From Coprothermobacter platensis DSM 11748 (GTDB taxonomy: Bacteria; Coprothermobacterota; Coprothermobacteria; Coprothermobacterales; Coprothermobacteraceae), in assembly GCF_000378005.1 (NCBI RefSeq), contig NZ_KB899040.1:315468-379467 (forward strand): 64,000 bases of DNA, read 5' to 3'. The notes beneath the pieces are model-generated. The model saw only the letters and a list, made by a program, of their open reading frames with translations. It was not told the origin of the DNA and did no database searches. Below are positions 2,328-60,647 of this stretch, piece by piece. Both the position numbers and the translations under genes were made by a program. The first letter of the stretch is position 1. Every line of letters starts with the position of its first letter.

Positions 2328-2336
2328 TGCTATAAT
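2328..2336 (+). promoter_or_regulatory. Extended -10 promoter of murI giving a leaderless transcript
   Basis: TGC followed by a perfect TATAAT (2331-2336) is an extended -10 element. The predicted transcription start is about base 2343, one base before the ATG at 2344, and there is no Shine-Dalgarno. A 15-base stretch here (2323-2337) is identical to 5083-5097, the promoter of another leaderless gene. No good -35 is visible, which is normal for extended -10 promoters. Confidence 0.6.
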
Positions 2337-2343
2337 CGTAACA

Positions 2344-3093
2344 ATGAACACTTACTTAGTTTATGATTCTGGTACAGGTGGAGCATGGTTTTCTCTGCAA
2401 CTTCTGGCTCTACGGAAAGCCACGCACGTTATCTTCTATGCTGATACGGCACACTTTCCATTGGGTTTAAAGAATGAAACAGAATTGTACGGTATCTTAC
2501 GTGATTTTTTCACTTTTTCGAGTCCGTTAAAAGTAGACGGTATTTTCTTGGCATGCAATACCATCAGCAGTGTTTATTTGCGCTATTGGCCATTGTTTAA
2601 GAAGAATATGGAAACAAGTATTCCTATTTTTCATACGTACTCTTATCATGAAGGATTACCGAAATTACAAAAACCGCTTATCTTAGCGACACAATCCACT
2701 GTGGATGCTCGTATTTACACATACTTTACAGGCGGAAAGGGAGTAGAAGTAAGCGCGACTAAGCTTATAGATGCCGTTCAGCGGAATAACAGTGAGTTAG
2801 CCCAGGCTCTGGTCCATAACATATGCGAGTACGCCAAAAAGGAACGTTTTAGTGACATAGTTTTGGGATGCACGCATCTTAGCGAAGTGGCTGGGCTTTT
2901 TGCGGAAGAAGGTTTCCGCACTTATGACCCATTAGGTCGCATTTTGGAGAATTTAACAGCAGAATCTCCGTCTGATGGGGGCGATTTGAGTTTGACTTTG
3001 CATGCCACAGGTTCTTATGACGATGTGCTAAACTATGTTAGGAGAAAAGCTTCTTTCTTACCTGAGGAGGTCTTGCTAAATGCCGATAAATGA
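2344..3093 (+). CDS. murI: Glutamate racemase (Asp/Glu racemase family)
   Basis: MurI interconverts L- and D-glutamate for peptidoglycan synthesis in the cytoplasm. The protein shows the family signatures in order: 'VYDSGTGG' near the N terminus (catalytic-site Asp and Ser), 'LACNTIS' containing the first catalytic Cys, and 'VLGCTHL' with the second Cys and adjacent His. At about 249 aa it is near the usual length of 255-270. The ATG at 2344 is preferred over the in-frame ATG at 2323 because the latter lies upstream of a TATAAT box and would not be transcribed from it. The next gene starts 14 bases before this one ends, and downstream comes a membrane-anchored M23 peptidase, so this is a small cell-wall operon. 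Sequence drift from typical MurI is noticeable, but both Cys are present. Confidence 0.85.
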   Translation: MNTYLVYDSGTGGAWFSLQLLALRKATHVIFYADTAHFPLGLKNETELYGILRDFFTFSSPLKVDGIFLACNTISSVYLRYWPLFKKNMETSIPIFHTYSYHEGLPKLQKPLILATQSTVDARIYTYFTGGKGVEVSATKLIDAVQRNNSELAQALVHNICEYAKKERFSDIVLGCTHLSEVAGLFAEEGFRTYDPLGRILENLTAESPSDGGDLSLTLHATGSYDDVLNYVRRKASFLPEEVLLNADK

Positions 3094-3505
3094 CGTCTAT
3101 GTTTTATATGGATTGTTTGGTTTGGCTGCCATTTTGGTTATTATTAACATCTGGCTGTTGGTTAGGTTAGCAAGAATCAAAGGGTACGAAAAGCTGAATG
3201 CTCAGGTTAGTGAAGCTTTGGCAGACCTTGACGAGGTTAAGAATAATTTGTCTTCATTGGAGGCTGATGAAGAGAGCGATTTTTCGTACAGTAAGGTCGT
3301 ACGTTACGATGCTTTCCAGGATGCCAAGGGACGTCAAAGTGGCTCTATGTTAGTGCTGAATAGAAAAGGAACAGGATTTATAATTACAATCATAAATAGC
3401 CGAGACAGATCGGCAACCTTCTTAAAGGAAGTGGTAGAATACAAACCAGTGCAAGCCTTGTCACCAGAAGAGCAGGTGTTGCTGAATGAAGCAAGAAAAG
3501 GTTAG
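3080..3505 (+). CDS. DUF4446 family membrane-anchored protein
   Basis: A 141-aa protein: one N-terminal transmembrane helix (about residues 8-28), a short coiled-coil-like segment (about 35-65), then a compact domain with 'VVRYDAFQDAKG' and an 'LSPEEQ' near the C terminus. These are the conserved features of DUF4446, a family common in Firmicutes with no known function. The ATG at 3080 has GAGGAGG about 10 bases upstream and overlaps the end of murI by 14 bases, so it is probably translationally coupled. Its position between murI and an M23 peptidase suggests an envelope role, which is inference. Confidence 0.8.
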   Translation: MPINDVYVLYGLFGLAAILVIINIWLLVRLARIKGYEKLNAQVSEALADLDEVKNNLSSLEADEESDFSYSKVVRYDAFQDAKGRQSGSMLVLNRKGTGFIITIINSRDRSATFLKEVVEYKPVQALSPEEQVLLNEARKG

Positions 3506-4376
3506 AGAAGATAAGGCCGTTTGTATACATCTGACATTTAATCAAAAGAAAATTGAACTTAATTGTGGAAGGCGCACTTATCGGTGGCTATGCCGGTCTG
3601 TGATGGTTTTATTCCTCATATTGGGGATAGTTTTTTTCAATATGCAACAAACTAAGGGTTTAACCGCGTTAGCTATGCAAAAGCAGGATGTTCAGCAAAC
3701 AAAACAGTTGGTTGCACAGTATGAGTCGCAAATGGCACTTCTGGAAAAACAAAATCAGCTTTTGACAGAGTTTAAAGAGAAACAAGTACAGCAATTAGAA
3801 GCTAAGTTAAAGACGGTGGTGGACACTGCTGCAAATACACTTAAAAAACCCAGCCTGAAGAACTTAGTTGCTACCACATCTGTCGCAGCGGTTTATCGTG
3901 GTACAGATGATATTGACAAGCAAATTCAGAGCCTGCAAAGTCAAATGGATAAAGTAAAAAACACTATCACGAAATACGCAGATGCATTGAACGCATTTCC
4001 TGATAAATGGCCAGTATATGGCGATATAACAAGCACCTTTGGATGGCGTCACTGGAGCTCCGGGTGGTCGGATTTTCATACGGGGCTGGATATAGCGAAT
4101 TCTTGCGGGACACCTGTATACGCTGCTGCAAAGGGTGTAGTAGTGTTTGCAGGGCGTGAGGGTGATTATGGTTTGAACATCATTATCAGCCATGGCAATG
4201 GCTATACCACCAGGTATGCTCATTTGAGTTATATTGATGTGAAAGAAGGGCAAACCGTTCTAAAAGGAGATTACATTGGCAATGTAGGTGAAACAGGTTT
4301 TGCAACGGGATGCCATCTGCATTTTGAAGTAAGACTAAATGGTACCTTAATAGATCCTTATAAAGTACTGGATTAG
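3486..4376 (+). CDS. Membrane-anchored M23 (LytM) metallopeptidase
   Basis: A 296-aa protein. A cytoplasmic N-terminal tail of about 35 residues is followed by one transmembrane helix (about 37-54), a Gln/Lys-rich coiled coil (about 60-110, and again near 140-160), and a C-terminal LytM domain from about residue 180. The zinc-site motifs are intact: 'HTGLDIA' (HxxxD) and 'HLHFE' (HxH), with the intervening 'RYAHL' His. The family cleaves peptidoglycan cross-links or activates amidases, outside the membrane. It overlaps the DUF4446 gene by 20 bases, and its start lies 7 bases after a GCAGGTG Shine-Dalgarno-like sequence. The coiled-coil plus LytM layout resembles EnvC/NlpD-type or sporulation SpoIIQ-like proteins; which one cannot be decided. 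Confidence 0.88.
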   Translation: MKQEKVREDKAVCIHLTFNQKKIELNCGRRTYRWLCRSVMVLFLILGIVFFNMQQTKGLTALAMQKQDVQQTKQLVAQYESQMALLEKQNQLLTEFKEKQVQQLEAKLKTVVDTAANTLKKPSLKNLVATTSVAAVYRGTDDIDKQIQSLQSQMDKVKNTITKYADALNAFPDKWPVYGDITSTFGWRHWSSGWSDFHTGLDIANSCGTPVYAAAKGVVVFAGREGDYGLNIIISHGNGYTTRYAHLSYIDVKEGQTVLKGDYIGNVGETGFATGCHLHFEVRLNGTLIDPYKVLD

Positions 4377-4391
4377 GCACACTTGGATACT

Positions 4392-4435
4392 AAAAGCAAA
4401 GAGGCCCATCTACACAGATGAGCCTCTTTGCTTTT
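4392..4435. terminator. Bidirectional intrinsic terminator between convergent genes
   Basis: A 14-bp perfect outer stem (AAAAGCAAAGAGGC at 4392-4405 and its complement at 4422-4435), extended inside by CATCT/AGATG, separates the M23 peptidase gene from the convergent cyclodeaminase-like gene. It has A-rich and T-rich flanks suitable for termination in both directions. Confidence 0.85.
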
Positions 4436-4446
4436 ATGCCTGCTGG

Positions 4447-5052
4447 CTATATGCCTAACAATGTTTTAGCCGTATTTTCTACGCTCAACGATAAGTTGTT
4501 AAACTCTTCAAATAGAGAAGATGCTTCTTCATACAATGGTGCTGTTTCTTTTTTTGTACTGTTTATTTTCACATTAGCAAAAGCTGAAAACATAGCAGCT
4601 TGAGCTAACTTTACACCGCTATATAAATCAGATGCTACCGCTGGAAGTATTTCTTGCGCAACAGGTTCGATGGTTTCTAAGGATTCCTTAATAACCTTCA
4701 TGGTGTTGAGTGGAACTTGAGTGGCTGTCAGCAATGCACTTTTTATGGTTGCTGACCTAACTTGTTTCTCTTCTTCATTACTTTTTGGAAGATGCAGAGC
4801 GTCCATATAAGAATCAAAAGCCCTTTTGTCTTCATCAGAAAGAATAAGAAGCTGATGACGAAGTGTATCCAAATGCTGCGCTGCTGGCTCAAAGTTAGAG
4901 TCTTGAACTTTTTTCTGGCTAACCCTTATGGACATGGCCATTAGGCTGCAAGCCATGGCTGCGACAACGGCAGCGGCGGCTCCACCACCGGGTGTGGGTG
5001 CATCTGATGACAAAGCGTCTAAAAAGGCTCCTACAGTTTCTTTATCTATCAT
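4447..5052 (-). CDS. Cyclodeaminase/cyclohydrolase family protein (FTCD-C / FchA-like)
   Basis: About 201 aa, the normal size for a stand-alone formiminotransferase-cyclodeaminase C-terminal domain protein. The N terminus 'SDAPTPGGGAAAAVVAAMA' is the conserved folate-binding loop and first helix of this family. Members act on formimino-THF or as methenyl-THF cyclohydrolase (FchA) in one-carbon metabolism. The start at 5052 is chosen because GGAGG lies 8 bases upstream; in-frame ATGs at 5073 and 5070 lie upstream of that site and have none. It is divergent from the exported orphan starting at 5103 and convergent with the M23 gene. No other folate genes are nearby, so the exact reaction is open. 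Confidence 0.85.
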   Translation of the reverse strand: MIDKETVGAFLDALSSDAPTPGGGAAAAVVAAMACSLMAMSIRVSQKKVQDSNFEPAAQHLDTLRHQLLILSDEDKRAFDSYMDALHLPKSNEEEKQVRSATIKSALLTATQVPLNTMKVIKESLETIEPVAQEILPAVASDLYSGVKLAQAAMFSAFANVKINSTKKETAPLYEEASSLFEEFNNLSLSVENTAKTLLGI

Positions 5053-5087
5053 ATGAAAGCCTCCATTCATCAATGTTCTTTCATGCC

Positions 5088-5100
5088 TGCTATAATCATA
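5088..5100. promoter_or_regulatory. Extended -10 promoter, possibly bidirectional, between 5052(-) and 5103(+)
   Basis: TGC plus TATAAT (5091-5096) on the plus strand predicts a transcription start at the A of the ATG at 5103, a leaderless message. The following bases make TATAATCATA, which reads TATGAT (5 of 6 consensus) on the minus strand and would give the cyclodeaminase-like gene a leader of about 36 bases that includes its GGAGG. Confidence 0.55.
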
Positions 5101-5102
5101 GC

Positions 5103-6068
5103 ATGTACAAAGTTCTAACAGCTGTACTCATTGTCTTGGTCGTTCTTGTTGGTTGGTGGGCATGGGATCAGCTTCATGGTGCGTTGAGTGTGAGTACGAC
5201 TACAGGAAACTTTAAATTTATTTCGAAAGGACAAGACGTATCAGTACCTTGTACCAGAGGCAATAGCATAACCTCAGAAAATGTGACTCTTTACACATCT
5301 AATCCTGACACATTGATGAAATATCTCGCATTGCAGCAGGTAAAGACGTGCAGTGCGCCCATTACTTGCATGGCCAAGGGTTTTGATGGGGACAAGCTTT
5401 ATCTTGATCCGAATTGCTATTTCGATTTGGGAACAGGTGGCGCTTACGCTGATGTATTCGAAGCATTAGATACGTATCTTGGCGTGGGCAAAGTAGTCAT
5501 AGGGTCTCGTCAGCTTGAATCAGACCCCGTTTCCAAACTTATTACTTTATCGCCGTATTATTTCATAACAGGTGAACAAGGAGTAGAACTGGTCAGGATA
5601 AAAGACGCGTCGTTGGATAAGTTTTGGCAAACTCTCGGCGTTACGCCTCAAGTAAGTGTAGACGGGAATACCGCTAATGTGAGTTTAAATCTGCCATCGT
5701 ATGATGACCACTTATTGTACGCGATCTCATTGAATATAGAACATTTTATGAAAGTGAGCAATGTTGTCATTAACATAAACGGCTTAGAGGCTTTCCGGCA
5801 CAGCGTGCCATATGGCTTAAAGCTGGCGCAAGGTGCTGATGGCTACTTAGTTACAGGAGAATTGCAGGATAGTAGTGAACTTAGGAGTTTCTTGATTGAT
5901 GCATCCATTACTGATTCTGGAAATACACTATCCGTTAAACTGGATGAAGGAATTAGCTCTGAAAATTACAGCCTTGTTTTAGCTGTTTTGGACACCGTTC
6001 GTGGAAGAACCGTAAAAATTACTGCCGGTCCTTATACGGATCTGGGCTCTTTTCCCTCGCAATTTTGA
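5103..6068 (+). CDS. Orphan membrane-anchored or exported protein
   Basis: About 321 aa. The N terminus (Met-Tyr-Lys, then about 15 hydrophobic residues ending near Gly-Trp-Trp-Ala-Trp) is a signal anchor, so the rest is extracytoplasmic. The body is Ser/Thr/Val-rich and beta-like, with four Cys in the first 110 residues ('VPCTRG', 'KTCSAPITCMAKG', 'PNCYFD') that could form disulfides. I recognise no family. The start is ATG 5103, placed by the TATAAT box exactly one promoter distance upstream; earlier in-frame codons are upstream of the promoter. The 3' end overlaps the convergent HD-like gene by 37 bases, with no terminator between them. Confidence 0.65.
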   Translation: MYKVLTAVLIVLVVLVGWWAWDQLHGALSVSTTTGNFKFISKGQDVSVPCTRGNSITSENVTLYTSNPDTLMKYLALQQVKTCSAPITCMAKGFDGDKLYLDPNCYFDLGTGGAYADVFEALDTYLGVGKVVIGSRQLESDPVSKLITLSPYYFITGEQGVELVRIKDASLDKFWQTLGVTPQVSVDGNTANVSLNLPSYDDHLLYAISLNIEHFMKVSNVVININGLEAFRHSVPYGLKLAQGADGYLVTGELQDSSELRSFLIDASITDSGNTLSVKLDEGISSENYSLVLAVLDTVRGRTVKITAGPYTDLGSFPSQF

Positions 6069-7345
6069 TCCCTTAGCAACCATTTTTTCGGCAAAGCCAA
6101 CACAACATTTTCATTTTTCTTAAGCAATGGCAGAGGTGTGAGAAACACTTTTTCATACGGTAAATCTATACTGCTATGTTTTTGAAAGGTCACGGCTGAG
6201 GACAGCATGAGAAGACGTTTTGGAAGAGTTGCTGTTTGCTCGCCTATGGATACTTCCATTACGTTACCTACAGAAAGTTTTTTAAAAGGACCCTCTATGG
6301 TTGATACAGATGTTTTCAGGAGAAAAGCACTTTGGACTAATGTGTCTGGAATGTTTCGGTGTGTTCCATAGATACCTAATAAGTCTGCGGCCACAGAATA
6401 AAGAGATTTTGGTTTTTCTTGCTGATAAAAATTGTGAAAAAACGTGAACATCTGGTCATTGGAGTAAACCTTTTTGGGCCCGATGGTTTTTAAGAGTGAT
6501 CGCTCTTCTTCTATGTATGAAAGTCTTGTAATGCACTGCTGTGAATGTACATTTTGACAGTGTTTTTCTATTTTCTTTTCATAGTGAAGAAGAAAATCTT
6601 CGTATATATAACAAAGGCTTGCAAAAAAGTCAGTAAATTCCATTGCCAGGCGGTTGAAGGTTAATCCGCTGCTGGTAAGCAATGTCCTCCATGTCTGCAT
6701 TACAGCGGGTTGCAAAGGAGGGACTATTTCAGAGAAGTATGCCTCTATGTTTGCCACATGCTCCGCATAGGATATGCTGAGTTCTCTGGTGTCAGCTGGT
6801 AAGCACTCAAGGATGCGCAAAATGCTATCCATGTCGAAGTACATTCTCCGTGCTTCTTCTTGTGAGGAGATGTCGTAAAAAGATGGCAGTCTGTTCATTA
6901 TTACGTACCTGACGTGCTCCAATTGTTCACCCGTTAAGAGCGCATTGTTGAAGCTAATAACTGTGTCTAACTGTTTTCTACCATAAGGTATGGCATTTGC
7001 ACTGATGGATGTGCTGTAAACTTCTGATTTTTGGAATTGTCGAAGAAAAACATCTTCAGTTCTGTCGTGATGTTTCATCGCTAAGTACCATAATGGAGCG
7101 GCAGAAGGAAGACCCAACCTAAAGAATGGGATGTTCCCAGTGGAAGTCCAAAACTCTGCGAAAGGGCTCATGATTTCTCTTATCTGTTCTGCATGTCTGT
7201 CCTTTTTGGGATGGTTTACGCTTTTTGCTGCAAGAAAATCAGATGAGAGTTTATTAATATCGTGCACTACTGCCAACAACTTTATACCCAATTTTTGTTC
7301 CCAATTGAGACGCGTATTCGTTGCCTCCTGTACATAATTCTTCAT
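6032..7345 (-). CDS. Orphan protein with an HD-domain-like N terminus
   Basis: A 437-aa cytoplasmic protein (no membrane segment or signal). The N terminus carries 'VVHDINKL' (His28-Asp29), further His at 45 and 51, and 'KHHDRT' (His92-His93-Asp94), an H...HD...H...HH/D spacing like metal-dependent HD phosphohydrolases. The rest is helical, with clustered aromatic residues, and I do not recognise it. There is no GGDD polymerase motif, zinc cluster or cas gene nearby, so it is not a Cas10. Its ATG has no Shine-Dalgarno and sits 5 bases after a TATTAT box, and it is back to back with phoH. The downstream AGGAGG inside codons 6-7 leads to no in-frame start codon. The coding region is convincing by length; the function is unknown. 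Confidence 0.6.
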   Translation of the reverse strand: MKNYVQEATNTRLNWEQKLGIKLLAVVHDINKLSSDFLAAKSVNHPKKDRHAEQIREIMSPFAEFWTSTGNIPFFRLGLPSAAPLWYLAMKHHDRTEDVFLRQFQKSEVYSTSISANAIPYGRKQLDTVISFNNALLTGEQLEHVRYVIMNRLPSFYDISSQEEARRMYFDMDSILRILECLPADTRELSISYAEHVANIEAYFSEIVPPLQPAVMQTWRTLLTSSGLTFNRLAMEFTDFFASLCYIYEDFLLHYEKKIEKHCQNVHSQQCITRLSYIEEERSLLKTIGPKKVYSNDQMFTFFHNFYQQEKPKSLYSVAADLLGIYGTHRNIPDTLVQSAFLLKTSVSTIEGPFKKLSVGNVMEVSIGEQTATLPKRLLMLSSAVTFQKHSSIDLPYEKVFLTPLPLLKKNENVVLALPKKWLLRDQNCEGKEPRSV

Positions 7346-7349
7346 GAAG

Positions 7350-7356
7350 TATAATA
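7350..7356. promoter_or_regulatory. Symmetric -10 element serving two divergent leaderless genes
   Basis: TATAATA reads TATAAT on the plus strand (7350-7355) and TATTAT on the minus strand (7356-7351). The two start codons flank it directly: ATG 7364 on plus and ATG 7345 on minus, only 18 bases between them. Predicted starts are about 7362 (plus) and 7344-7345 (minus), so both messages would begin at or within two bases of their ATG. No Shine-Dalgarno fits in either direction. Confidence 0.6.
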
Positions 7357-7363
7357 TGCTAAG

Positions 7364-8323
7364 ATGGGCATGAAGACCTACGACTTTAGAGAAGATGAGT
7401 GGTTACAATATAGTCCTATTCTGACGGGGTCAGAAGAACAGCTTAAGCTCTTGGAAAATTTCTTTCATGTGAAAATCGTAAATAGTCCTGAAGGAACGGC
7501 TATCACTGCGGAAGACGAGGATGATATAAGAGCTTTCATGGACTTCATTGAATCGCTTTCGAAGACACTTAGAGGGGGAGAAACGGTTAAGACAGAGGAC
7601 TTAGAAAGGTTTTTGTCTTCTTTCAGGCAGTACGGTAAGCTGGTTTTGGGCAACGTTATTACGCTTAACGCACAAGGAAAGCCCATAAGGCCAAAAACAA
7701 AGGGTCAAGAGCTATTTGTTGATGCTATGGGCAAAAAGGATTTGGTTTTTGCTGTAGGCCCAGCAGGTACTGGGAAAACCTTTCTTGCTGTTACTTATGG
7801 TGTCGCTTTATTAAAGGAAAAAGCTGTTCAGCGTCTGGTTATTTCACGTCCCATATTGGAGGCAGGAGAAAAGATAGGTTTTCTACCTGGCGATATTTAT
7901 CAGAAAGTTGATCCGTTTTTCAGACCTCTTTATGATGCTTTATTTGAGTTGATGGGTCCTGAGAAAACCCAGCGGTACATTGAAAGAGGTATTATCGAAG
8001 TTGCTCCATTAGCTTACATGCGTGGGCGGACTTTTGATAATGCATTTATCATTCTGGATGAAGCGCAAAATACAGGAAACGAACAGATGAAAATGTTTCT
8101 AACGCGCATGGGATTGGGTTCAAAGATGGTTGTTACGGGAGACATTACACAGATTGATCTACCAAAGCCAAAAGAATCTGGGCTCATAAGAGCTTTAGAC
8201 ATACTTAAAGGGTTTCCAGAAATATCCATTGTCAGACTTAGCGAAAGTGATATCGTGCGTCATCGGCTGGTGCAAAAAATTGTAAGGGCATACGAGGACT
8301 ATGAAGAACAGAATCCGTTATAA
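7364..8323 (+). CDS. phoH: PhoH-like P-loop ATPase
   Basis: A 319-aa protein of the PhoH family (YbeZ/PhoL type): 'VGPAGTGKT' Walker A at about residues 131-138, 'FIILDEAQNT' Walker B at about 225-234, and 'VTGDITQID'. The N-terminal 100 residues contain the degenerate RNA-binding-like region typical of the longer members. The family partners with YbeY in ribosome maturation and RNA metabolism, and ybeY lies two genes downstream. ATG 7364 (or 7370, the third codon) is the start because the -10 box ends at 7355; no Shine-Dalgarno exists. It heads an operon of overlapping genes running to ppdK. The next gene begins 23 bases before this one stops. Confidence 0.92.
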   Translation: MGMKTYDFREDEWLQYSPILTGSEEQLKLLENFFHVKIVNSPEGTAITAEDEDDIRAFMDFIESLSKTLRGGETVKTEDLERFLSSFRQYGKLVLGNVITLNAQGKPIRPKTKGQELFVDAMGKKDLVFAVGPAGTGKTFLAVTYGVALLKEKAVQRLVISRPILEAGEKIGFLPGDIYQKVDPFFRPLYDALFELMGPEKTQRYIERGIIEVAPLAYMRGRTFDNAFIILDEAQNTGNEQMKMFLTRMGLGSKMVVTGDITQIDLPKPKESGLIRALDILKGFPEISIVRLSESDIVRHRLVQKIVRAYEDYEEQNPL

Positions 8324-10985: not shown

Positions 10986-10992
10986 GAAATAT

Positions 10993-11409: not shown

Positions 11410-11414
11410 GTACC

Positions 11415-17115: not shown

Positions 17116-17126
17116 GAGGGTGGATT

Positions 17127-19850: not shown

Positions 19851-21599
19851 TTAAGGCTGTACCGTGTAAACGCTATTGCTGGCTGAGTCAACAGCTAAGT
19901 AATAAGTGAGCTTGACATCACCGTAAGCTCTGTTCAAAGGTATGAATAGGGTCTCGTTTATGATAAAGGGGGCACCCGTTGTCATTCCCATTGCTTGATA
20001 CTGTTTTAAATAAGTGTTGACTTGTGTTGTTACCTGCGTATTATGTTCTATGAAGAGTTCGTTTATCCCTGTCTTGGGCACTTTATAGAAAACTACATGC
20101 TGTTGATTTAAGCTTCCCATGTAGATAACATTTCCTGGCAAAGTTAAACTGTCTATGACACCACGTTTCAAAGGCGTCATATCCAGCGTAACAACATTTC
20201 CTTTTTCTACACCATAGGAAAGCAACAGTTCTCCATTATCCTCGGTGAAGAAAAGTGTTTGGGGAGGTTTCGTGTATTGACTGGCAGATACCAGGTGATC
20301 ATTACCTAAAACAAAGAAACGCTGCAAATCCGTCGTTTGTACCAGTCCTGTGTCTTCCATCTCTGTTATAAGTTTGCCTTCACTAACAAAATAGTGTTTT
20401 GGTGTTTCAGCCTTTGCGTTGGTTGCTTGAAAGTTGCGCGATGTCATGTCTAAGAAAAAACTTAGTGACCAGTCACACTGGGACGCTTGGCCAATTATGT
20501 GTTCGGTCACATTCATGGTTACAGACCAAAGTTTTTCAGTAACCGGCTCCGTTTGAAAATCAACATCCCTGGTTATGAAACGTTGTGAAGGAAAACTCTG
20601 CGCCGTACAGACTGACGACACGCCGCCGCGTACTAAGTTACTCACCAAATTATCATCGTTCTCATGGATTGCTAAGCTTAAGGCCTTTATCCAAGGAATA
20701 GGCTGGGCGTCTCTCTGAAATTCCAAACGTTTTACTGAAGCAGATGTGTTTTCCCATAAAGAAATATAAAGCCCATCATCCAGCGTAGACCACCAAACAT
20801 CGCGTATATTCGCTTCGTACTTATCAGTTTCATAAATATCTTTTGTTGATCTGGTTTTCTCATCATAAATACTTACTTTCATTGTGGTGTTATTCGTTGA
20901 GACGAAGGCTACTACTGGAGAAGTTTTTGAACAAGACAGCATATCTACATTTTGTTTAGCAATATTGCTGACATTACGATTTACTAAATCGTAACTACTC
21001 ATTATGTTGCCGTTGGCATAATATATTCTGGTCCCATCTGCGTTTATGCATGCTCGAGCTTGATCTGGAAGTATTCTTTCCAAGCGCCCGCTGAATATTG
21101 AGTATAGGTAAATCCCAGATGAATCGTTTTGTTCTCTTAACGTTGGGAAGGGCGAAAGACTGATGAGTATTACTCCGTTGTCAGTGCTCAAATCCAAGCT
21201 AATTATGGCTGCCTTTTCTTTGAAACTGACTAACGGTTTTGGAGAGAACCCTTGGCCCTGGTCCAAGTAGAAAACTTCTCCAGAGCGTGAAGCAACAGCG
21301 AGTGCGGTATCGTTGCCGAAATGATTAGCTGAGAACATCGACACGTTGTCCATAAGTATGGTAGGGTTTTTCTTGTTTGCCGAATAATAAAGTAGTTTAC
21401 CGTCGGCACTAAGGCTGAAGACATTGTTTCCTGACCACCGTACTTCGCTGGTACTCAGATTCATAGATGCCACAGAACGGTAATCCACCAGCGACAAGCG
21501 TTTACCTTTTGTGCTATCGGATTTGATCTCGACAAAAAGAATGATAATTACGACAATAATGATGGGTACAAAAAGCCAAGATTTCTTGATGCTTTTCAT
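19851..21599 (-). CDS. Orphan membrane-anchored beta-propeller-like protein
   Basis: About 582 aa. The N terminus is Lys-rich, then a strongly hydrophobic helix (about residues 8-24) ending in 'FVEIKS', so it is a signal anchor with the rest outside. The body is almost all beta, with repeated 'SADGKLLYYS', 'STDNGVILISLS' and 'NADGTRIYYANG' units spaced roughly 45-60 residues apart, as in TolB/WD40-like propellers. A central region with two Cys does not show the repeat. No enzymatic motif is seen. The ATG at 21599 has no Shine-Dalgarno, and TATAAT lies only four bases upstream, so a leaderless or near-leaderless message is possible. The function is unknown. Confidence 0.65.
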   Translation of the reverse strand: MKSIKKSWLFVPIIIVVIIILFVEIKSDSTKGKRLSLVDYRSVASMNLSTSEVRWSGNNVFSLSADGKLLYYSANKKNPTILMDNVSMFSANHFGNDTALAVASRSGEVFYLDQGQGFSPKPLVSFKEKAAIISLDLSTDNGVILISLSPFPTLREQNDSSGIYLYSIFSGRLERILPDQARACINADGTRIYYANGNIMSSYDLVNRNVSNIAKQNVDMLSCSKTSPVVAFVSTNNTTMKVSIYDEKTRSTKDIYETDKYEANIRDVWWSTLDDGLYISLWENTSASVKRLEFQRDAQPIPWIKALSLAIHENDDNLVSNLVRGGVSSVCTAQSFPSQRFITRDVDFQTEPVTEKLWSVTMNVTEHIIGQASQCDWSLSFFLDMTSRNFQATNAKAETPKHYFVSEGKLITEMEDTGLVQTTDLQRFFVLGNDHLVSASQYTKPPQTLFFTEDNGELLLSYGVEKGNVVTLDMTPLKRGVIDSLTLPGNVIYMGSLNQQHVVFYKVPKTGINELFIEHNTQVTTQVNTYLKQYQAMGMTTGAPFIINETLFIPLNRAYGDVKLTYYLAVDSASNSVYTVQP

Positions 21600-33965: not shown

Positions 33966-34430
33966 TTATTGACCTCCGTTCAAATATGCCGCTAATTCTT
34001 CGTCCAGTATTTTTCCTACTAAAGCACCCTCTGCTTTGCCTTTCAATTCTTGCATTACAGAACCCATGATTTTACCACGTTCTTTTATATCTTTTGGTTG
34101 CATCTGCACTATGTGTGCTTTAATGACGTTTCTTACTTCTTCATCTGACATCATTTTTGGCAGATATGCCTCAAGCACTTCAAGTTCAGCCTGTTCTTTT
34201 TGAGCAAGTTCATTTCTTCCAGCCTTTTCATAAAGTTCAATAGCTTCTCTGCGTTTCTTTACTTCCTGCCTTATTGCTTGTAATACGTCTTCATCATCCG
34301 CTGTTTTCATTTTTTGAACTTCTATATTTTTTACGGCGGTAAGCACAGAACGAACGACTTCCAATCTCAGGGTATCTCGGGCTTTCATATATTGTTTCAA
34401 CTCATCTTGTAATTGTTCTTTTAAACTCAT
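33966..34430 (-). CDS. yqeY: GatB/YqeY domain protein
   Basis: A 154-aa stand-alone YqeY protein, related to the C-terminal tRNA-binding domain of GatB. The N terminus 'SLKEQLQDELKQYMKARD' and 'RREAIELYEKAGR' and 'LEAYLPKMMSDEE' are diagnostic. Its biochemical role is unclear, perhaps linked to tRNA-dependent amidation. ATG 34430 has AAAGGAGGGG about 7 bases upstream; the in-frame ATG at 34454 precedes that site. It is transcribed with nrdJ. Confidence 0.9.
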   Translation of the reverse strand: MSLKEQLQDELKQYMKARDTLRLEVVRSVLTAVKNIEVQKMKTADDEDVLQAIRQEVKKRREAIELYEKAGRNELAQKEQAELEVLEAYLPKMMSDEEVRNVIKAHIVQMQPKDIKERGKIMGSVMQELKGKAEGALVGKILDEELAAYLNGGQ

Positions 34431-34490
34431 TTTTTGCCCCTCCTTTATTTCCATAACTTAAATATAAGACACACTCCCCAATAACACTTA

Positions 34491-45168: not shown

Positions 45169-45726
45169 TTACGGAGCAGTTATGACCTTTTGTATTACGT
45201 TAGAAACGCCTTTCCCGTCGCTATCAACTGCATACACACGCAGGTTCATGGTTCCTTTAGCCTCGCCGGAAAGGCGTGTAAATTTATAACTGAATGTGCC
45301 ATTGAAGTCTGTGCGTAAAACCATTATCAATCTATTACCATCCCAGAAAGTGACGTAATAAGCACCTGCTTTGTTGTTTTTTGTCACTTTTCCGCTAAAA
45401 ACAACCCAATCTGCTTTTAATGTATCCGCTGTGGGATAACTCAGTTGCAAGGTGAGGGTTTGAGATGCCGTTGTCGCTTGATCTGGGGTAGGAAATCCAT
45501 AAGAAAGCATGCCTGTGGGAGTAGTTGTATTCCCCGTTGGGGAAGTGGCAGTGCAAACTTCCTTCACGACCGTAGTGGTTTGAACTACCGTTTTTGGTAT
45601 GCAACTTTGACTTTCTATGGCCGGTTTACCGGCCAAGATAAGAAGTGCTCCTAAAAACAAACCGATTGCAAAAAGCAGAATACCTGAGACACTTCTCCTG
45701 TTTTGAGGCCTTTCAGGATAGTACAT
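45169..45726 (-). CDS. Orphan membrane-anchored protein with Ig-like domain
   Basis: A 185-aa protein with basic residues, then a transmembrane helix (about 15-33), a Thr/Pro/Val-rich linker, and a C-terminal beta-rich domain of about 95 residues ('WVVFSGKVTKNN', 'TFSYKFTRLSG', 'RVYAVDSDGKGVSN') that looks like an Ig or fibronectin fold. It is exposed outside the membrane. The start at 45726 has no Shine-Dalgarno, but TAAAAT sits so that transcription would begin one base before the ATG. It converges with the previous gene and diverges from rdgB. Confidence 0.6.
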   Translation of the reverse strand: MYYPERPQNRRSVSGILLFAIGLFLGALLILAGKPAIESQSCIPKTVVQTTTVVKEVCTATSPTGNTTTPTGMLSYGFPTPDQATTASQTLTLQLSYPTADTLKADWVVFSGKVTKNNKAGAYYVTFWDGNRLIMVLRTDFNGTFSYKFTRLSGEAKGTMNLRVYAVDSDGKGVSNVIQKVITAP

Positions 45727-45733: not shown

Positions 45734-45739
45734 ATTTTA
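45734..45739 (-). promoter_or_regulatory. -10 box of the Ig-like orphan (leaderless)
   Basis: On the minus strand TGA-TAAAAT is an extended -10, with the predicted start at about 45727, one base before the ATG at 45726. No Shine-Dalgarno is present. Confidence 0.55.
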
Positions 45740-45762
45740 TCAGAAGTTGGCGCTATTCGTTG

Positions 45763-45768
45763 TAAAAT
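45763..45768 (+). promoter_or_regulatory. -10 box of rdgB (leaderless)
   Basis: TAAAAT is placed so that the start of transcription falls on base 45775, the A of the rdgB ATG. No Shine-Dalgarno precedes the ATG. The divergent -10 of the Ig-like orphan is 23 bases away. Confidence 0.55.
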
Positions 45769-45774
45769 TTAGCC

Positions 45775-46395
45775 ATGGAAAGAAAACGTATGGTTTTAGC
45801 TACAAGTAACTTAGGAAAGGTAAGAGAAATCTCTAAGATCATAGGAGATATTGTAGAACTTGTTCCTTTTGACGGAGAAATGCCAGAGGAAACAGGCAGT
45901 ACCTATTCGGAAAATGCTTTTATAAAAGCAAAAGCAGCTTTTGATAAGTACGGCATAGCTTCATTGGCAGATGACTCGGGGTTAGAGGTAGACTACCTTG
46001 GCGGACAACCGGGCATTTTTAGTAACCGTTTTATGAATTTGAAAACAGATAAAGAAAAGTACATGAAAATACTTGAATTAATGCAAGGTGTACCCTGGGA
46101 AAAACGTACGGCACGTTTCCACACGGTAGTCTGTTTCATTCATGATGAAGGTAAATCGCACTTTTTTGAAGGCATTGTAGAAGGTTTCATTGCCAATGAG
46201 CCTGCGGGAAGCAATGGTTTTGGCTATGATCCCATTTTTTATTACCCACCGCTAAACAAACATTTTGCAGAATTAGACGCAGAAGAAAAGAATGAAGTAA
46301 GCCATAGAAGCAGGGCTTTCTTGAAATTTAAAGAATTCTATACCGGTGTTCTTGAAGCAAAGCAGACAAAAGGAGGAGAAAATTATGAGCGATAG
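45775..46395 (+). CDS. rdgB: XTP/dITP diphosphatase (RdgB/HAM1)
   Basis: A 206-aa house-cleaning enzyme hydrolysing dITP, XTP and similar non-canonical purine nucleotides. Family motifs: 'LATSNLGKVREI' at the start, 'LADDSGLEVDYLGGQPG' and 'SNGFGYDPIF'. It heads the long plus-strand run rdgB-valS-...-rodA, with a leaderless ATG. It functionally complements nfi, which removes inosine from DNA. It overlaps valS by 11 bases. Confidence 0.94.
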   Translation: MERKRMVLATSNLGKVREISKIIGDIVELVPFDGEMPEETGSTYSENAFIKAKAAFDKYGIASLADDSGLEVDYLGGQPGIFSNRFMNLKTDKEKYMKILELMQGVPWEKRTARFHTVVCFIHDEGKSHFFEGIVEGFIANEPAGSNGFGYDPIFYYPPLNKHFAELDAEEKNEVSHRSRAFLKFKEFYTGVLEAKQTKGGENYER

Positions 46396-48997: not shown

Positions 48998-49000
48998 GTT

Positions 49001-51305: not shown

Positions 51306-51308
51306 TAA

Positions 51309-51551: not shown

Positions 51552-51601
51552 AACACATGCTAAAAAGGAAAATATAGAGGAAAATAGGAGGTTTTAAAAC
51601 G

Positions 51602-52609: not shown

Positions 52610-52615
52610 GCATGA

Positions 52616-53299: not shown

Positions 53300-53622
53300 A
53301 AAGTCTGTTTTTCTTGGTCACAGGTATGATGTTCTTTCCGCCGTTGGCTATAATGAGAGTGCGGGCTTTGCTTAATAATCTCGGGTTTTGGTCCTGGGTT
53401 GTCGTTTTTATCTTGGCTTTGGGTTTTGATGGTGCATACATGCACCCATTTTCGCTTTGCACCGTCGGTCTTTTACTTATGGCACAGATATTTGAATGGA
53501 ATTGGAAAAAGCTTTTTGGCATCATGGCTGCTGTAGTAGTGCTTTGGGGCTTTATTGTAAATTGGTGGGCGATGCTCATCTTACCACTTGTCTTAATAGA
53601 GGCGTGGGCGGATGCGGAGTAA
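53293..53622 (+). CDS. mreD: Short MreD-like membrane protein
   Basis: A 109-aa protein with about four transmembrane helices, lying exactly where mreD belongs, between mreC and PBP2, and overlapping both. It is shorter than standard MreD (about 160 aa) and sequence signatures are weak, so the name rests mainly on position and topology. Confidence 0.6.
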   Translation: MVESLFFLVTGMMFFPPLAIMRVRALLNNLGFWSWVVVFILALGFDGAYMHPFSLCTVGLLLMAQIFEWNWKKLFGIMAAVVVLWGFIVNWWAMLILPLVLIEAWADAE

Positions 53623-55336: not shown

Positions 55337-55964
55337 ACTATCTGGTTTGAAAGAGGGATATCTGGTGGAATATAACGGGGATAATCCCCAAGAATTGTCA
55401 AATATCCTTACAAAGTATTTATCTTCTTATGGTGAATTGCTAAAAGAGCATACGTTATTTGTCCGTTCTGGTCTTGATGAACAAGCCCTTAACATAGTAA
55501 GAAAGAATCTCGAGCAATTTGGTTTTAGCAACCGTGTTTTACCTTATAAACAAGAAGCAGCGCCGAAGGAAGAGAAACGAGAACGAACTGCCGGCAAAGC
55601 ATTAAAAAATGCTGAATTGCTTTTTCGTATGGTTACCGGACCGCTGCGTGGTGGAGAAAACATTTATTCAAATGAGGGCGTTTTCCTTTGGGGCGATTTG
55701 CACAAAGATGGCATAATAAAGGCCCCTTGTGTTATTGTTATGGGAAAGGCGGCTGGCAAGGTAGTTGTTCCTGAAGGATCTTTTGCTTTATTCCGTCAGT
55801 GCGAAGGAGCGTCAGTGCAGGTGGGTGATGTTCTTTATGTCGATATTTCTTCGAAAACATGGATACTTGTAAGTGATACAGAACCAAATACGATAGAGGT
55901 TTTCACAGATGAAAAACAGGCTGGGAGGAGGATAAGCCAATGGCTGGACAATGTGTTGTTGTGA
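55317..55964 (+). CDS. minC: Septum-site inhibitor MinC
   Basis: A 215-aa protein. The N-terminal domain (about 1-85) inhibits FtsZ; the C-terminal beta helix has the pattern 'PLRGGENIYSNEG', 'WGDLHKDGIIKA', 'VIVMGKAAGKVVVPEG', binding MinD. Divergence is high in the N-terminal half. The GTG start lies within the mrdA 3' end. Order with minD and minE makes the call firm. Confidence 0.88.
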   Translation: MEKQFVKLSGLKEGYLVEYNGDNPQELSNILTKYLSSYGELLKEHTLFVRSGLDEQALNIVRKNLEQFGFSNRVLPYKQEAAPKEEKRERTAGKALKNAELLFRMVTGPLRGGENIYSNEGVFLWGDLHKDGIIKAPCVIVMGKAAGKVVVPEGSFALFRQCEGASVQVGDVLYVDISSKTWILVSDTEPNTIEVFTDEKQAGRRISQWLDNVLL

Positions 55965-56743
55965 CGTCCGGAAAAGGTGGAGTTGGAAAAACCACGATTA
56001 CAGCTAACGTGGGATATGGCTTGGCGTCACTGGGTAAAAGGGTTTTGCTCATTGATGGTGATATAGGGTTAAAGAACTTGGATAGTGTGTTGGGCCTCGA
56101 GAGGCGTGTTGTGTACGACTTGTTCGATGTTATCAGTGGCAGAGTAGATTTGAAAGATGCGCTGGTAAAAGACAAACGTCTCCCTGAGAACCTGTTTCTG
56201 TTGGCTGCGTCTCAAACACATTTCAAGGAAGATGTCCCTGAAGACAAGTTCAGCACTGTGGTAGCGCAGGCAAAAGAAATGTTTGAATATGTGTTTGTGG
56301 ACAGCCCTGCAGGTATTGAGCATGGTTTTCGTATAAGCAGTCGTTTTGCCGATAGGGCGGTTGTTGTTACCGTGCCTGAGGTTCCATCCATTCGAGATGT
56401 TGATCGTGTCGTAGGATTGTTAGAAAACTACAAAGTGAAGATCGATGGGGTAGTTATAAACAGGCTCAATCAATCATTGGTAAAGCAGGGAAATATGCTT
56501 TCGCCAGACGATATACTGGATCTTTTGGAGATTCCTTTATTGGGTGTGGTTCCTGACGATACGCTTATTGTCCAAGCAGTGAACCAAGGGGAACCGTTGC
56601 TTTCTAAGTATCCATCTTCACCTGTGGCACATGCATACTTGAATATTGCTCATAAACTGCTGGATCCTGATTATGTTGCTCAAGAGGTAAAAAAACCGAA
56701 GAGTTTTTGGTCCATATTCGGTTTTTTAAGAGGTGAAGGCTAA
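55940..56743 (+). CDS. minD: Septum-site determining ATPase MinD
   Basis: A 267-aa ParA-like ATPase. Deviant Walker A 'SGKGGVGKTT' (about residues 10-19), 'LLIDGDIGLKNLD', and 'VFVDSPAGIEHGF' are present. The C-terminal 'KPKSFWSIFGFLRGEG' is an amphipathic membrane-targeting helix. It recruits MinC and is released by MinE. It shares its last base with the ATG of minE. Confidence 0.96.
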   Translation: MAGQCVVVTSGKGGVGKTTITANVGYGLASLGKRVLLIDGDIGLKNLDSVLGLERRVVYDLFDVISGRVDLKDALVKDKRLPENLFLLAASQTHFKEDVPEDKFSTVVAQAKEMFEYVFVDSPAGIEHGFRISSRFADRAVVVTVPEVPSIRDVDRVVGLLENYKVKIDGVVINRLNQSLVKQGNMLSPDDILDLLEIPLLGVVPDDTLIVQAVNQGEPLLSKYPSSPVAHAYLNIAHKLLDPDYVAQEVKKPKSFWSIFGFLRGEG

Positions 56744-57000
56744 TGTCCTGGTTCAGTGACCTTTTTGGAAAGCACACAAAAGATGACGCGAAGCAGCGTT
56801 TGGAAGTGATGTTGATCCACGACCGAGGTCTTTTTGACAACGCTGATTTGGAGCAGATGGAGAAGGAAATATTAGCCGTAGTAAAACGTTACGCAGACAT
56901 AGAAACCGGCGCAGCAGAAATAAACGCCGACCGTTTGGAAAATGGTCGGTTACTGCTTAGCATAAGAGTGCCGGTTAGTGGGCAGAAGACTCGACGGTGA
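56743..57000 (+). CDS. minE: Cell division topological factor MinE
   Basis: An 85-aa protein with an amphipathic N terminus ('SWFSDLFGK'), the MinD-stimulating 'AKQRLEVMLIHDRG' segment and the C-terminal topological domain with 'EILAVVKRYADI'. The presence of MinE implies pole-to-pole oscillation rather than a DivIVA-based Min system. The stop overlaps the rodA GTG. Confidence 0.93.
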   Translation: MSWFSDLFGKHTKDDAKQRLEVMLIHDRGLFDNADLEQMEKEILAVVKRYADIETGAAEINADRLENGRLLLSIRVPVSGQKTRR

Positions 57001-58091
57001 AGGTTCGTTTATTTTTTGCTTTTGTCTGTGTTATAAGTGCTTTGTTCTTGGTGGCTTTCGGGCTGGTGGGTATATCAGCCGCCACTCAACCTGGTTACGA
57101 GTTTAGTAGTTTTTTTACGGATTCTGTGCGAACGCAAGTTTTTGCTTTTGCCGCTGGTCTCATAATAGGTTTAGTCGTTCTTTATATTGGGTTTTCTTAT
57201 TTGCTTAGGATTGCACCTTATTTGGGTGGTATTTCCTTAGCACTTCTTGTGCTAACGCTGATTATCGGCCATGAGACGTATGGTGCGCAGCGTTGGATTT
57301 CCTTAGGTTTCTTTCAGTTTCAGCCGTCAGAACTTGCTAAACTGACCTTGCCGCTATTCCTTGTTTGGATTTCTGCTCATTTTAGTGGTTGGAGAAAATG
57401 GGTCGTGAGCACGTTGGTGGCTTTGTGTTTTATTGGATTAGTCATTATTCAGCCTGATTTAGGTACCAGCATTGTTTTACTTACAGAGTTTTTAGGTTTT
57501 CTCGTTGTGGATGGTATTAATTGGGGAGTGCTTTTCTCTGGCGTCTATGCCTTGATATTGATGTTTCCTGTACTTTGGGAAAAAGGTCTAAGAGATTATC
57601 AGCGTAGACGTCTTCTCAGTTTTCTTAACCCTTACGATGACACAACGAAAGATGGTTATAACTTGATCCAAGCCTGGACTGCCATTGGCGCTGGAGGTCT
57701 TAGGGGGAAAGGGCTTCAAGACGCATTTTTCCTTTACTATGGCTATTTGCCCGTGGATTATGCTGACTTCATTTTTGCGACAATTGCTTACGTTCTTGGT
57801 TTTTGGGGCGCCCTTGCTGTAATCATTTTGGTTTGCACATTCTTGCTGGGTGGCTTGGGCTATGCTTTCTTTGTTCCTAACCAAATTCAGCAGAAATTCT
57901 GTTTTATGGCACTATGCGCCTGGGCAGTACAGTTCGTTATAAATATTGGCATGAACCTGGGGCTCATGCCAATAACAGGGATACCGTTGCCTTTTATCAG
58001 TTATGGTGGCTCGGCAATTCTTATGAACACCGTAATGCTTTTTGTGTTCTTGTCCTATAGACCAGAACCTGAAGCACACGAAACGCATTAA
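56997..58091 (+). CDS. rodA: SEDS glycosyltransferase RodA
   Basis: A 364-aa SEDS protein with about 10 transmembrane helices that polymerises lipid II for elongation with PBP2. Motifs: 'QRWISLGFFQFQPSELAK', 'QPDLGTSIVL', 'GLRGKG', 'DFIFATIAYVLGFWG' and 'PLPFISYGGSA'. It is closer to RodA than FtsW by its cluster with mreBCD and mrdA. Its TAA shares bases with the stop of the convergent M16 peptidase gene; there is no terminator. Confidence 0.95.
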   Translation: MKVRLFFAFVCVISALFLVAFGLVGISAATQPGYEFSSFFTDSVRTQVFAFAAGLIIGLVVLYIGFSYLLRIAPYLGGISLALLVLTLIIGHETYGAQRWISLGFFQFQPSELAKLTLPLFLVWISAHFSGWRKWVVSTLVALCFIGLVIIQPDLGTSIVLLTEFLGFLVVDGINWGVLFSGVYALILMFPVLWEKGLRDYQRRRLLSFLNPYDDTTKDGYNLIQAWTAIGAGGLRGKGLQDAFFLYYGYLPVDYADFIFATIAYVLGFWGALAVIILVCTFLLGGLGYAFFVPNQIQQKFCFMALCAWAVQFVINIGMNLGLMPITGIPLPFISYGGSAILMNTVMLFVFLSYRPEPEAHETH

Positions 58092-59299
58092 GGCCCAAGA
58101 ACAACCTCTGCTGAGCCTCCATCCAGACTTTCTCTGAGTGCGCTACTTATTTTTCCCACATCAATACTTCGAATGTAGTTTATCTCACTGTCTGGATTCC
58201 AAATGATACCGCGCGACAGAAAGCGGTCTGCTAAAAGCATAGAAATGGTGGACGTGGACTCCAATCCCATAGTGTAAGCACCTAGTGTAAAGCGTTTAAA
58301 CTTTTCTAACTGTTCTTCATCCAACTCGCCTTGACTGAGTTTTTCCAGTTCTTCATCAACGATTTCCTTTGCTTTATCGAGGCCATTGGGTTTTAAGTCG
58401 CAAGCGATCACGAGTGATCCTGCCACAGATGTACCTTCTATGTTTGAATACACAGAATAGCTTAGACCTTCTTCCTCCCTAATTCTTAGGAAGAGCTGGC
58501 TGAAACTGGAGCCGCCTAAAATATTAGAGATTAATTGGTATGTGAAAATGTCATCGCTGGTTGTACTACTACCTCTCAGGGCCTTGCGGTAATACAGTTG
58601 CTGAGTATCTTCTCTAACCCGGGATTCTCCCGCGTGGAATGAAGGGGCGTCTATTGATAAGCGCTCACTGTTCAACTCGAACGGTGGGTGAAGTTTTTCA
58701 ATAAAAGATTGGACAACGTTTGCTTCCATGGGCCCGACCATGGCAATACAAGGTTTTCTTGAAAACATCGATTTCCAGAAGCTCTCTATCTTCGGCTTTG
58801 TGGCATTTTCTACATCTTCTCGTCTACCCGCTACATCTTCGCCCATGCGGTGTCCATCCCACATCAACTTTTGCAAATAGGAGTAAGCACGTTCTTCAGG
58901 CTGGTCTTCTGACATTTGGATCTCACTTATTACCACTTGCTTTTCTATAGAAAGAGCTGTTTCTTCTAAAAGTGGTTCATAAGCCAAACTGAATATGACA
59001 TCGACTGCGTTCTGCCAAAATGGTGCTGGTACAGTGGCTGTGAAGTATATTGCATCGAACGTTGTAAAACCGTTATAACGGCCACCGACACCTTCAATTT
59101 CCATAGCTAAATCTTTACTCGTGGGATACTTCTTTGTGCCCCTAAACACCATGTGTTCCAAAAGGTGAGCGTATCCTAACTGGCCTTCTTCTTCAGCCAT
59201 GGCTCCACCTGGTATAGCCATGGTGACAGAAAACACGCTGGTGTCTCGCTTCGCATATAAGCTCGAAAATGGTGTATCACCGATCAACTCAATATTCAT
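58088..59299 (-). CDS. M16 family zinc peptidase
   Basis: A 403-aa insulinase/processing-peptidase-like protein. The inverted zinc motif 'HLLEHMVFRGT' (HxxEH) is near residue 47, with the downstream Glu in 'KQVVISEIQMSED' about 75 residues later. Two M16 halves fit in this length. It is similar to YmxG/PqqL-type proteases of Firmicutes, which degrade small peptides. GGAGG lies 9 bases before the ATG. Confidence 0.9.
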   Translation of the reverse strand: MNIELIGDTPFSSLYAKRDTSVFSVTMAIPGGAMAEEEGQLGYAHLLEHMVFRGTKKYPTSKDLAMEIEGVGGRYNGFTTFDAIYFTATVPAPFWQNAVDVIFSLAYEPLLEETALSIEKQVVISEIQMSEDQPEERAYSYLQKLMWDGHRMGEDVAGRREDVENATKPKIESFWKSMFSRKPCIAMVGPMEANVVQSFIEKLHPPFELNSERLSIDAPSFHAGESRVREDTQQLYYRKALRGSSTTSDDIFTYQLISNILGGSSFSQLFLRIREEEGLSYSVYSNIEGTSVAGSLVIACDLKPNGLDKAKEIVDEELEKLSQGELDEEQLEKFKRFTLGAYTMGLESTSTISMLLADRFLSRGIIWNPDSEINYIRSIDVGKISSALRESLDGGSAEVVLGP

Positions 59300-59332
59300 G
59301 AGAATATTCCTCCGTTTTAACGTTTTTGAGTT

Positions 59333-59581
59333 CTAAGAAATGTCGTTACTCTTCTTCAAACGCTCTTCAAGCTGTGCTTTAGAAGGGCGCTCGTCGTTAA
59401 GAACTGTATACCGTGTATAGGCTACTGGTGTGTCTACTTCTATAACATCATTGATTTTTATAGTTTCTGACTGCTTTGCTGTTTTTCCGTTTATGCGCAC
59501 ATAGCCAGCTTGAATGATCTTTTGGGCTAAACTACGCCTTTTAATGATGCCGCTTTCCTTCAAAAACTTATCCAATCTCAT
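59333..59581 (-). CDS. rqcP: S4 RNA-binding protein, RqcP/YabO-like
   Basis: An 82-aa S4 domain protein. 'MRLDKFLKESGIIKRRSLAQKIIQAGYVRING' is the S4 start, as in RqcP, which helps the ribosome quality control factor RqcH add alanine tails, or the heat-shock protein Hsp15. It overlaps mazG by 14 bases; mazG-rqcP (yabN-yabO) is the standard Firmicutes pair, which favours RqcP. ATG 59581 is taken; the upstream ATG at 59608 lies within mazG and adds no homology. Confidence 0.85.
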   Translation of the reverse strand: MRLDKFLKESGIIKRRSLAQKIIQAGYVRINGKTAKQSETIKINDVIEVDTPVAYTRYTVLNDERPSKAQLEERLKKSNDIS

Positions 59582-60605
59582 GTTTAGATTGTTCCCAAAG
59601 TTCATCAACGTTTTTATTTTCTTTGTGTTGAGTTACATAATCCAAACGTTTCTGGAACTTTCTACTGGCTTTCAGCAATGCGTCCTCTGGGTCTACGCCT
59701 AAAAGTCTGGCAATATTGATTACAGTAAAAAGCAGATCGCCTACTTCTTCCGTTTCTCCATCATGATTGTTTTCTTCATAAGCCTGCCGGAGTTCTTCGA
59801 ATTCTTCCGATAGCTTGTCACTTAGTTGCATCGCATTTTCCCAATCCAAACCATTGTGGTGGGCTTCGTCTTGCAAACGCAGGGCCCAAGTAAAAATGTT
59901 TGGTGGAATGCTGCTTTCATCTTTTTTCTTACCTTTTCTTGATTGCCATTTGCTCAAAACCGTAGCAGCATCGCTATCTGTGTCTGAGGCGAACACATGC
60001 GGATGCCTGGATATGGCTTTTTCAGAAGCCATTTGAAAAACAGTTTCTAAGTTAAACGCATTGGTTTCCTCAGCGATGGTACTGTGGAGGAACAAATGCA
60101 GCCATAAATCGCCCAGTTCTTCAGCATAATTCTCCATGTCATTGTTGTTTATGGCATCCATTAATTCGCTGAGTTCTTCACGGCTCAACGTTACTAATTG
60201 ATATGGTGTTACCTCTTTGTCCCAAGGGCATTCTTTCCTCAGCGTTTCCACAATTTTCTTAAAACGAACGAAATGGAAACCCAAACTTTCAGCAGGGTAA
60301 ACCTGTAATGGTGTGGGTTCAACGTTTTCATCTAATTTGAATGCTTTTTGCGTTTCTAACGCCGCACGTTCAGAGGTATACCCCATAGTTTTTAAAAACA
60401 CCTGAGCAAACGTGACTGCTGTATCCACATCCATGCACAGCACGTTTACGGAGTCATGGTTTAGCAGCGCTTCCCAAACGCTTGTGGCAATGTTTGACCA
60501 GTCGTTTTCATCAGCGCGTATTTCAATGGCATTGGGCCATTGTTCAGCGCCTTTTTCATCCTCCACAATGACGTGGAGTCCTTTTATGAGCTCTATATTT
60601 ATCAT
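59568..60605 (-). CDS. mazG: MazG nucleotide pyrophosphohydrolase
   Basis: A 345-aa protein with two MazG units after an N-terminal extension of about 110 residues that I do not recognise. Domain 1 has 'CPWDKEVTPYQL' and 'REELSELMDAI'; domain 2 has 'LSEEFEELRQAY' and 'EEVGDLLFTVINIARLLGVDPEDAL'. MazG hydrolyses nucleoside triphosphates. In Bacillus YabN the N-terminal part is a tetrapyrrole methylase; here it is shorter and unlike that. The ATG at 60605 has no Shine-Dalgarno and sits at the predicted start of a TAAGAT promoter. Confidence 0.9.
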   Translation of the reverse strand: MINIELIKGLHVIVEDEKGAEQWPNAIEIRADENDWSNIATSVWEALLNHDSVNVLCMDVDTAVTFAQVFLKTMGYTSERAALETQKAFKLDENVEPTPLQVYPAESLGFHFVRFKKIVETLRKECPWDKEVTPYQLVTLSREELSELMDAINNNDMENYAEELGDLWLHLFLHSTIAEETNAFNLETVFQMASEKAISRHPHVFASDTDSDAATVLSKWQSRKGKKKDESSIPPNIFTWALRLQDEAHHNGLDWENAMQLSDKLSEEFEELRQAYEENNHDGETEEVGDLLFTVINIARLLGVDPEDALLKASRKFQKRLDYVTQHKENKNVDELWEQSKHEIG

Positions 60606-60611
60606 ATTTAA

Positions 60612-60647
60612 ATCTTACACCAGTGCCTTTTGGCTGGTATAATCATA
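60612..60647. promoter_or_regulatory. Divergent promoters of mazG (minus) and hppA (plus)
   Basis: On the minus strand TAAGAT (60617-60612) places the start of transcription on the A of the mazG ATG at 60605. On the plus strand TGG-TATAAT (60635-60643) is an extended -10 with start near 60650 and a 38-base leader carrying the hppA Shine-Dalgarno. The plus -10 continues as TATAATCATA, also reading TATGAT on the minus strand. The first codons of the plus message would be ATG TAA at 60651. Confidence 0.5.

Follow-up and report, generated by a model that had tools for sequence, protein, structure and literature searches.

Putative leaderless transcripts behind start-proximal -10 elements in Coprothermobacter and its family

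Results

Seven genes with a -10-like hexamer next to the start codon

The window analyzed here is a stretch of 64,000 nucleotides, positions 315468-379467 of a 1.42 Mb Coprothermobacter genome. A preliminary description had singled out seven genes in it, those starting at 2344, 5103, 7345(-), 7364, 45726(-), 45775 and 60605(-), as lacking a Shine-Dalgarno (SD) sequence and carrying a -10-like hexamer 5-8 nt ahead of the ATG. Both statements held: SD complementarity upstream was at most 4 nt at all seven, and the gap, defined as the number of nucleotides between the -10 hexamer and the start codon, was 7, 6, 5, 8, 7, 6 and 6, respectively (Table 1). The strong SD sites said to lie inside operons were also found, with AGGAGG or GGAGG preceding many operon-internal genes of the window.

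Table 1. Candidate -10 elements and the genes that follow them (window coordinates)
Feature	Position	Strand	Remarks
Extended -10 TGCTATAAT (TATAAT)	2328..2336	+	Gap 7 to ATG of racemase-like gene
Racemase-like gene (MurI-like, MNTYLVYDSGTGG), putative leaderless start	2344..3093	+	Weak Pfam Asp_Glu_race match, under cut-off
Extended -10 TGCTATAAT (TATAAT)	5088..5096	+	Gap 6; TATAATCATAGC-ATG in sister species, TGCTATAATGATAGC-ATG in another genus
Gene of unknown family, putative leaderless start	5103..6068	+	Start conserved in G001 and L003
Gene with leaderless-looking ATG in window species only	6032..7345	-	-10 conserved
Pseudo-symmetric shared -10 TATAATA	7350..7356	both	TATAAT on +, gap 8; TATTAT on -, gap 5
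PhoH gene, putative leaderless start	7364..8323	+	Pfam PhoH E=1.7e-91; -10 TATAAT, gap 8
Gene of unknown family, putative leaderless start	45169..45726	-	N-terminus MYYPERPQNR conserved in G001
-10 TAAAAT	45734..45739	-	Gap 7; gap and element conserved in sister species
-10 TAAAAT	45763..45768	+	Gap 6; TTGTAAAATTTAGCC-ATG identical in sister species
Ham1 family (nucleotide pyrophosphatase) gene, putative leaderless start	45775..46395	+	Pfam Ham1p_like E=9.4e-60; start conserved
MazG-domain gene, putative leaderless start	59568..60605	-	Pfam MazG E=2.4e-30; start conserved
-10 TAAGAT	60612..60617	-	Gap 6; CTGGTGTAAGAT conserved in sister species

No Pfam match was obtained for the products of 5103..6068 and 45169..45726(-). 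The racemase-like gene is the least certain of the seven as a transcript-first gene, because a same-strand gene ends 57 nt before it.

We compared sites of this set with relatives G001, L001 and L002 and with L003 (another genus). The sister species G001, a member of the same genus with a GC content of 45.0% as against 42.4% in the window genome, keeps the arrangement at six of the seven sites; the seventh, 7345(-), is not conserved as leaderless. L003 keeps the arrangement at 2344, 5103 and 7364. At 2344, where the N-terminus of the product aligns with its orthologues in G001 and L003, the sequence is TATAATCGTAACA-ATG here, TATAATCGTAAGA-GTG in G001 and TATAATTGGATGA-GTG in L003; the 7-nt gap is identical in the three lineages, and the rest of the upstream DNA differs. 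The start and the -10 of the PhoH gene, whose product is 83% identical to that in the nearest Coprothermobacter MAG contigs, are kept in G001, L001, L002 and L003. Within the 48 bp that separate 45726(-) from 45775, both ends are conserved in G001 and the middle has diverged.

Genome-wide association with SD-less divergent genes

The contrast had been called systematic, and it proved to extend beyond the window, to the whole genome and to a second species. Our scans took in the 1,423,273-bp main contig and 1.2 Mb of G001, and genes (1321) were called with our own simple coding-only model, which is blind to upstream signals. The comparison with shuffled sequence that had been proposed as a check gave a clear result: a TATAAT-like hexamer lies at gap 5-9 in 45 of the 102 SD-less divergent genes, whereas in 200 dinucleotide shuffles the number averaged 6.3 and never exceeded 16. 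The same hexamer was found at 1 of 118 SD-led divergent genes and at 5 of 111 SD-less operon-internal genes, and the latter difference supports the transcript-first status of the candidates.

The spacing peaks at gap 6, which is the zero-leader spacing, with 19 SD-less divergent genes (10, 7 and 8 at gaps 7-9) and about one hexamer per position farther upstream; no gap-6 peak was seen in operon-internal genes. Zero-leader spacing is present at all seven window sites (gaps 5-8) and as a peak in both genomes. TATAAT outranks all permutations of its own letters (53 matches; next 33, median 13), and motif discovery that was not seeded with TATAAT returned TGnTATAAT at the zero-leader position of SD-less divergent upstream regions. 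Expectation maximization (EM) seeded with TGnTATAAT retained this motif in divergent genes, whereas for distant same-strand genes and for operon-internal genes it converged on AGGAGG. By EM, a -10 at gaps 5-9 precedes roughly 19% of the divergent first genes of the window genome and 22% of those of G001. The putative leaderless genes start with ATG (64) or GTG (4) and never with TTG; 20% of the other genes have non-ATG starts.

At 21599(-) in the window, TATAAT stands 4 nt before an ATG without SD, with a TTG one codon earlier, and G001 has TAGAAT at a similar distance; this is a possible further leaderless gene.

Promoter type and the anti-SD sequence

A TG one base ahead of the hexamer (TGnTATAAT) was found at about a quarter of the leaderless sites. 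No -35 consensus was found at the leaderless candidates (spacers 8-31), nor at leadered promoter candidates (spacers 10-25). Promoters of the extended -10 or -10-only type fit the leaderless candidates. A TTGACA-like -35 was likewise detected genome-wide at neither of the promoter classes tested.

The missing -35 partner, together with the AT-richness of SD-less starts from -14 to -3, would also suit a different reading, in which the hexamer acts in translation, not as a promoter but as a non-SD ribosome site of the unstructured or S1 type. Such a signal would be expected at operon-internal SD-less genes as well, where the hexamer is nearly absent in comparison with divergent genes (5/111 vs 45/102), and it would account neither for the preference for TATAAT over its permutations nor for a peak at the promoter-to-start spacing. 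We therefore regard a translation signal as very improbable and keep to the promoter reading.

The anti-SD at the 16S tail is intact (CACCTCCTTTCT), so the missing SD at the putative leaderless genes does not come from anti-SD loss. A second GGATCACCTCC match in G001 lies outside any 16S gene and was rejected as 16S; read on the opposite strand, it probably represents a perfect SD.

Conservation of the start sites

In G001, a TATAAT-like hexamer occupies gap 6 in 23 of 87 SD-less divergent genes and gaps 5-9 in 36 of 87, against a shuffle mean of 5.0. We then used a set of 1060 orthologous pairs between the two genomes (median identity 75%). Among 33 orthologous starts in G001 whose counterparts had been chosen in the window genome, 29 keep a -10 at gap 5-9 and 23 have the identical gap; for control first genes, 11 of 246 orthologous starts have a -10 in this range. 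Base identity between the two species is 0.70-0.82 over -12 to -7 and about 0.4 farther upstream, where the DNA has diverged. The 26-bp divergent intergenic region at genome positions 1013749-1013776, GTGTATATGATACAATGAACTTCGTT, is identical in both species, whereas most intergenic DNA has diverged between them.

TANNNT near an ATG is common in AT-rich intergenic DNA, and the match rule behind the first seven sites was loose (TAAGAT and TATTAT were allowed), so a reader choosing matches might have assembled such a set by chance. The shuffles, the permutations, the second genome and the conservation reject this explanation, whose probability we take to be negligible. It no longer stands for the set as a whole, although any individual site may have arisen by chance.

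A further alternative accepts the -10s as real and supposes that most of the mRNAs have very short SD leaders and a start codon downstream of the one called. Some -10s near a called ATG clearly do serve short SD leaders. One is at the YqeY gene (window 34430-34454(-)), which was not among the seven genes: TATATT stands 6 nt ahead of the called ATG, and we rejected 34454(-) as an eighth leaderless case because an SD-led ATG (AAGGAGGGGCAAAAAATG) 24 nt downstream matches the protein family better than the ATG at 34454. The others are the relatives of 7345(-), in which a leader of 10-11 nt contains AAGG (see below). For the candidates as a group, SD-led alternative starts within 25 codons occur no more often than among SD-led genes (7 of 53 vs 49 of 247). 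Codon-type conservation, moreover, sets in just past the called start, with values of 0.71/0.79/0.44 for the three codon positions, and there is none upstream of it; in several products a conserved domain begins close to that start (residue 2 for a TrmFO/GidA-like protein, residue 7 for MutS_I). Short SD leaders are thus an improbable explanation for most of these genes, and we favor initiation at the called start codon.

Closely spaced divergent genes

The divergent pair 7345(-)/7364(+) contains a pseudo-symmetric TANNNTA, with start codons 19 bp apart, and this TATAATA is conserved in four relatives: the genus members have the identical element, and L003 likewise retains TATAATA. In relatives of the genus, 7345(-) has ATA at the position of the ATG, and translation begins 10-11 nt later after AAGG; the leaderless start of 7345(-) therefore looks species-specific. 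At the predicted transcription start, the short-leader and the leaderless form differ by one base (ATA or ATG), which suggests how a gene could switch its start mode.

Divergent start codons lie exactly 18 bp apart in three pairs of the window genome and 21 bp apart in one. The pairs in this range are window 7345-7364 and those at genome positions 203864, 789522 and 1411234. With starts so close, the -10s must be contained entirely between the two start codons, and upstream promoter contacts, if there are any, would be inside the opposite gene. The 21-bp pair at 1411234, a macro-domain gene and its neighbor, has its -10s at gaps of 6 and 7 nt, and the sister species shows the same two starts, each with its -10 at the same gap. 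Divergent pairs with two leaderless members are not in excess (4 vs 3.8 expected under independence), and we thus do not claim a general bidirectional mode. We put forward tentatively, as somewhat less likely than its opposite, that in some divergent pairs with starts 18-21 bp apart, the candidates being 7345(-)/7364(+) and the pair at 1411234, a single -10 region of partial symmetry serves two leaderless genes. If so, the whole intergenic region would be promoter, and each transcript would begin at its own AUG.

Occurrence in related genomes

The spread of the arrangement was measured by counting TATAAT-N6-ATG matches against a reversed-pattern control. The counts were 25/7 in the window genome, 24/8 in G001, 26/8 in G002, 9/4 in G003 and 15/2 in G004 (another genus of the same family), and in two other families of the phylum 21/17, 21/15, 19/25 and 20/26. 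A TAWAAT version gave 66/25 in the window genome and 44/29, 44/34, 45/38 and 60/59 in these two families, so there may be a weak excess in the second of them (f2). With a 2-nt gap as control the excess in the window genome was much smaller (43/33). In a domain-wide sample, ratios were equal or higher in several unrelated genomes, in line with published surveys.

Discussion

The identity of the hexamer, its spacing, its restriction to transcript-first SD-less genes and its conservation together with that spacing are directly supported by the data, and they favor the leaderless reading. On this sequence evidence we consider it highly probable that transcription from a -10-only or extended -10 promoter begins at the start codon or no more than a few bases away from it and yields essentially leaderless mRNAs. 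Our best reading is that such mRNAs would come from about 20% of the divergent transcript-first genes and that this would be a family-level feature of the Coprothermobacteraceae. Sigma-A would begin transcription at the start codon of these genes, the 5' end of the mRNA would lie at the AUG, and ribosomes would start at a 5'-terminal AUG or GUG without SD pairing. They may do so by the 70S/IF2 route of leaderless initiation. Two start modes would then operate side by side, a leaderless one for about a fifth of the divergent transcript-first genes and an SD-led one for most others, operon-internal genes included.

If this is correct, a compact thermophile lineage, the Coprothermobacteraceae, joins the bacteria that use leaderless mRNAs with a normal anti-SD. 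Little or no excess was seen in the order- and phylum-level relatives tested, so gain or loss could be followed within a small group. Start annotation in the family should take -10 spacing into account.

The preliminary description had called leaderless use notable in this gene background, which was too strong, since published surveys show leaderless genes in many bacteria. The survey of Zheng et al. (2011, PMC3160421) gives 207 of 953 bacterial genomes, and according to GeneMarkS-2 predictions 21.6% of bacterial species have leaderless transcription (Lomsadze et al. 2018, as quoted in PMC9581028). Leaderless starts in bacteria are already well documented; the Coprothermobacter lineage would be a further example. 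Coprothermobacter is not mentioned in PMC3160421, supplementary tables aside, and the accessible part of another study places Coprothermobacteria among SD users (table value 63) and makes no leaderless claim there (PMC10783764). Our literature search, supplements and subscription papers aside, found no report of leaderless use in this lineage, and it found no transcription-start study of Coprothermobacter.

The genes described here resemble the TA-led genes of Zheng et al. (PMC3160421), which form a minority with a Pribnow-like signal about 10 bp before the translation start and no SD; the TAtaaT form, given there as typical of medium-GC genomes, is also the form found here. They also resemble those of Deinococcus, in which -10 motifs lie 6-7 bp ahead of ORFs, and of Deinococcus-Thermus generally, in which a -10 about 6-7 bp before the ORF occurs alongside SD-type genes (PMC12340547). 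In Deinococcus-Thermus, however, the motif is TANNNT, often TACACT, and concerns nearly a third of all genes (PMC12340547), whereas in Coprothermobacter it is TATAAT or TAAAAT, partly TGn-extended, and mostly at divergent transcript-first genes. Finally, the pair 7345(-)/7364(+) is similar to the bidirectional promoters described by Warman et al. (PMC12825309, PMC10268837), whose -10 is pseudo-symmetric and in which starts are most often 18 bp apart and spacings of 10 and 23 bp are also common (PMC12825309): its TATAATA could act on either strand, which would place the two starts about 18 bp from each other. Unlike in the promoters of Warman et al., the predicted starts at 7345/7364 fall on both start codons, and therefore both transcripts would be leaderless in the window species.
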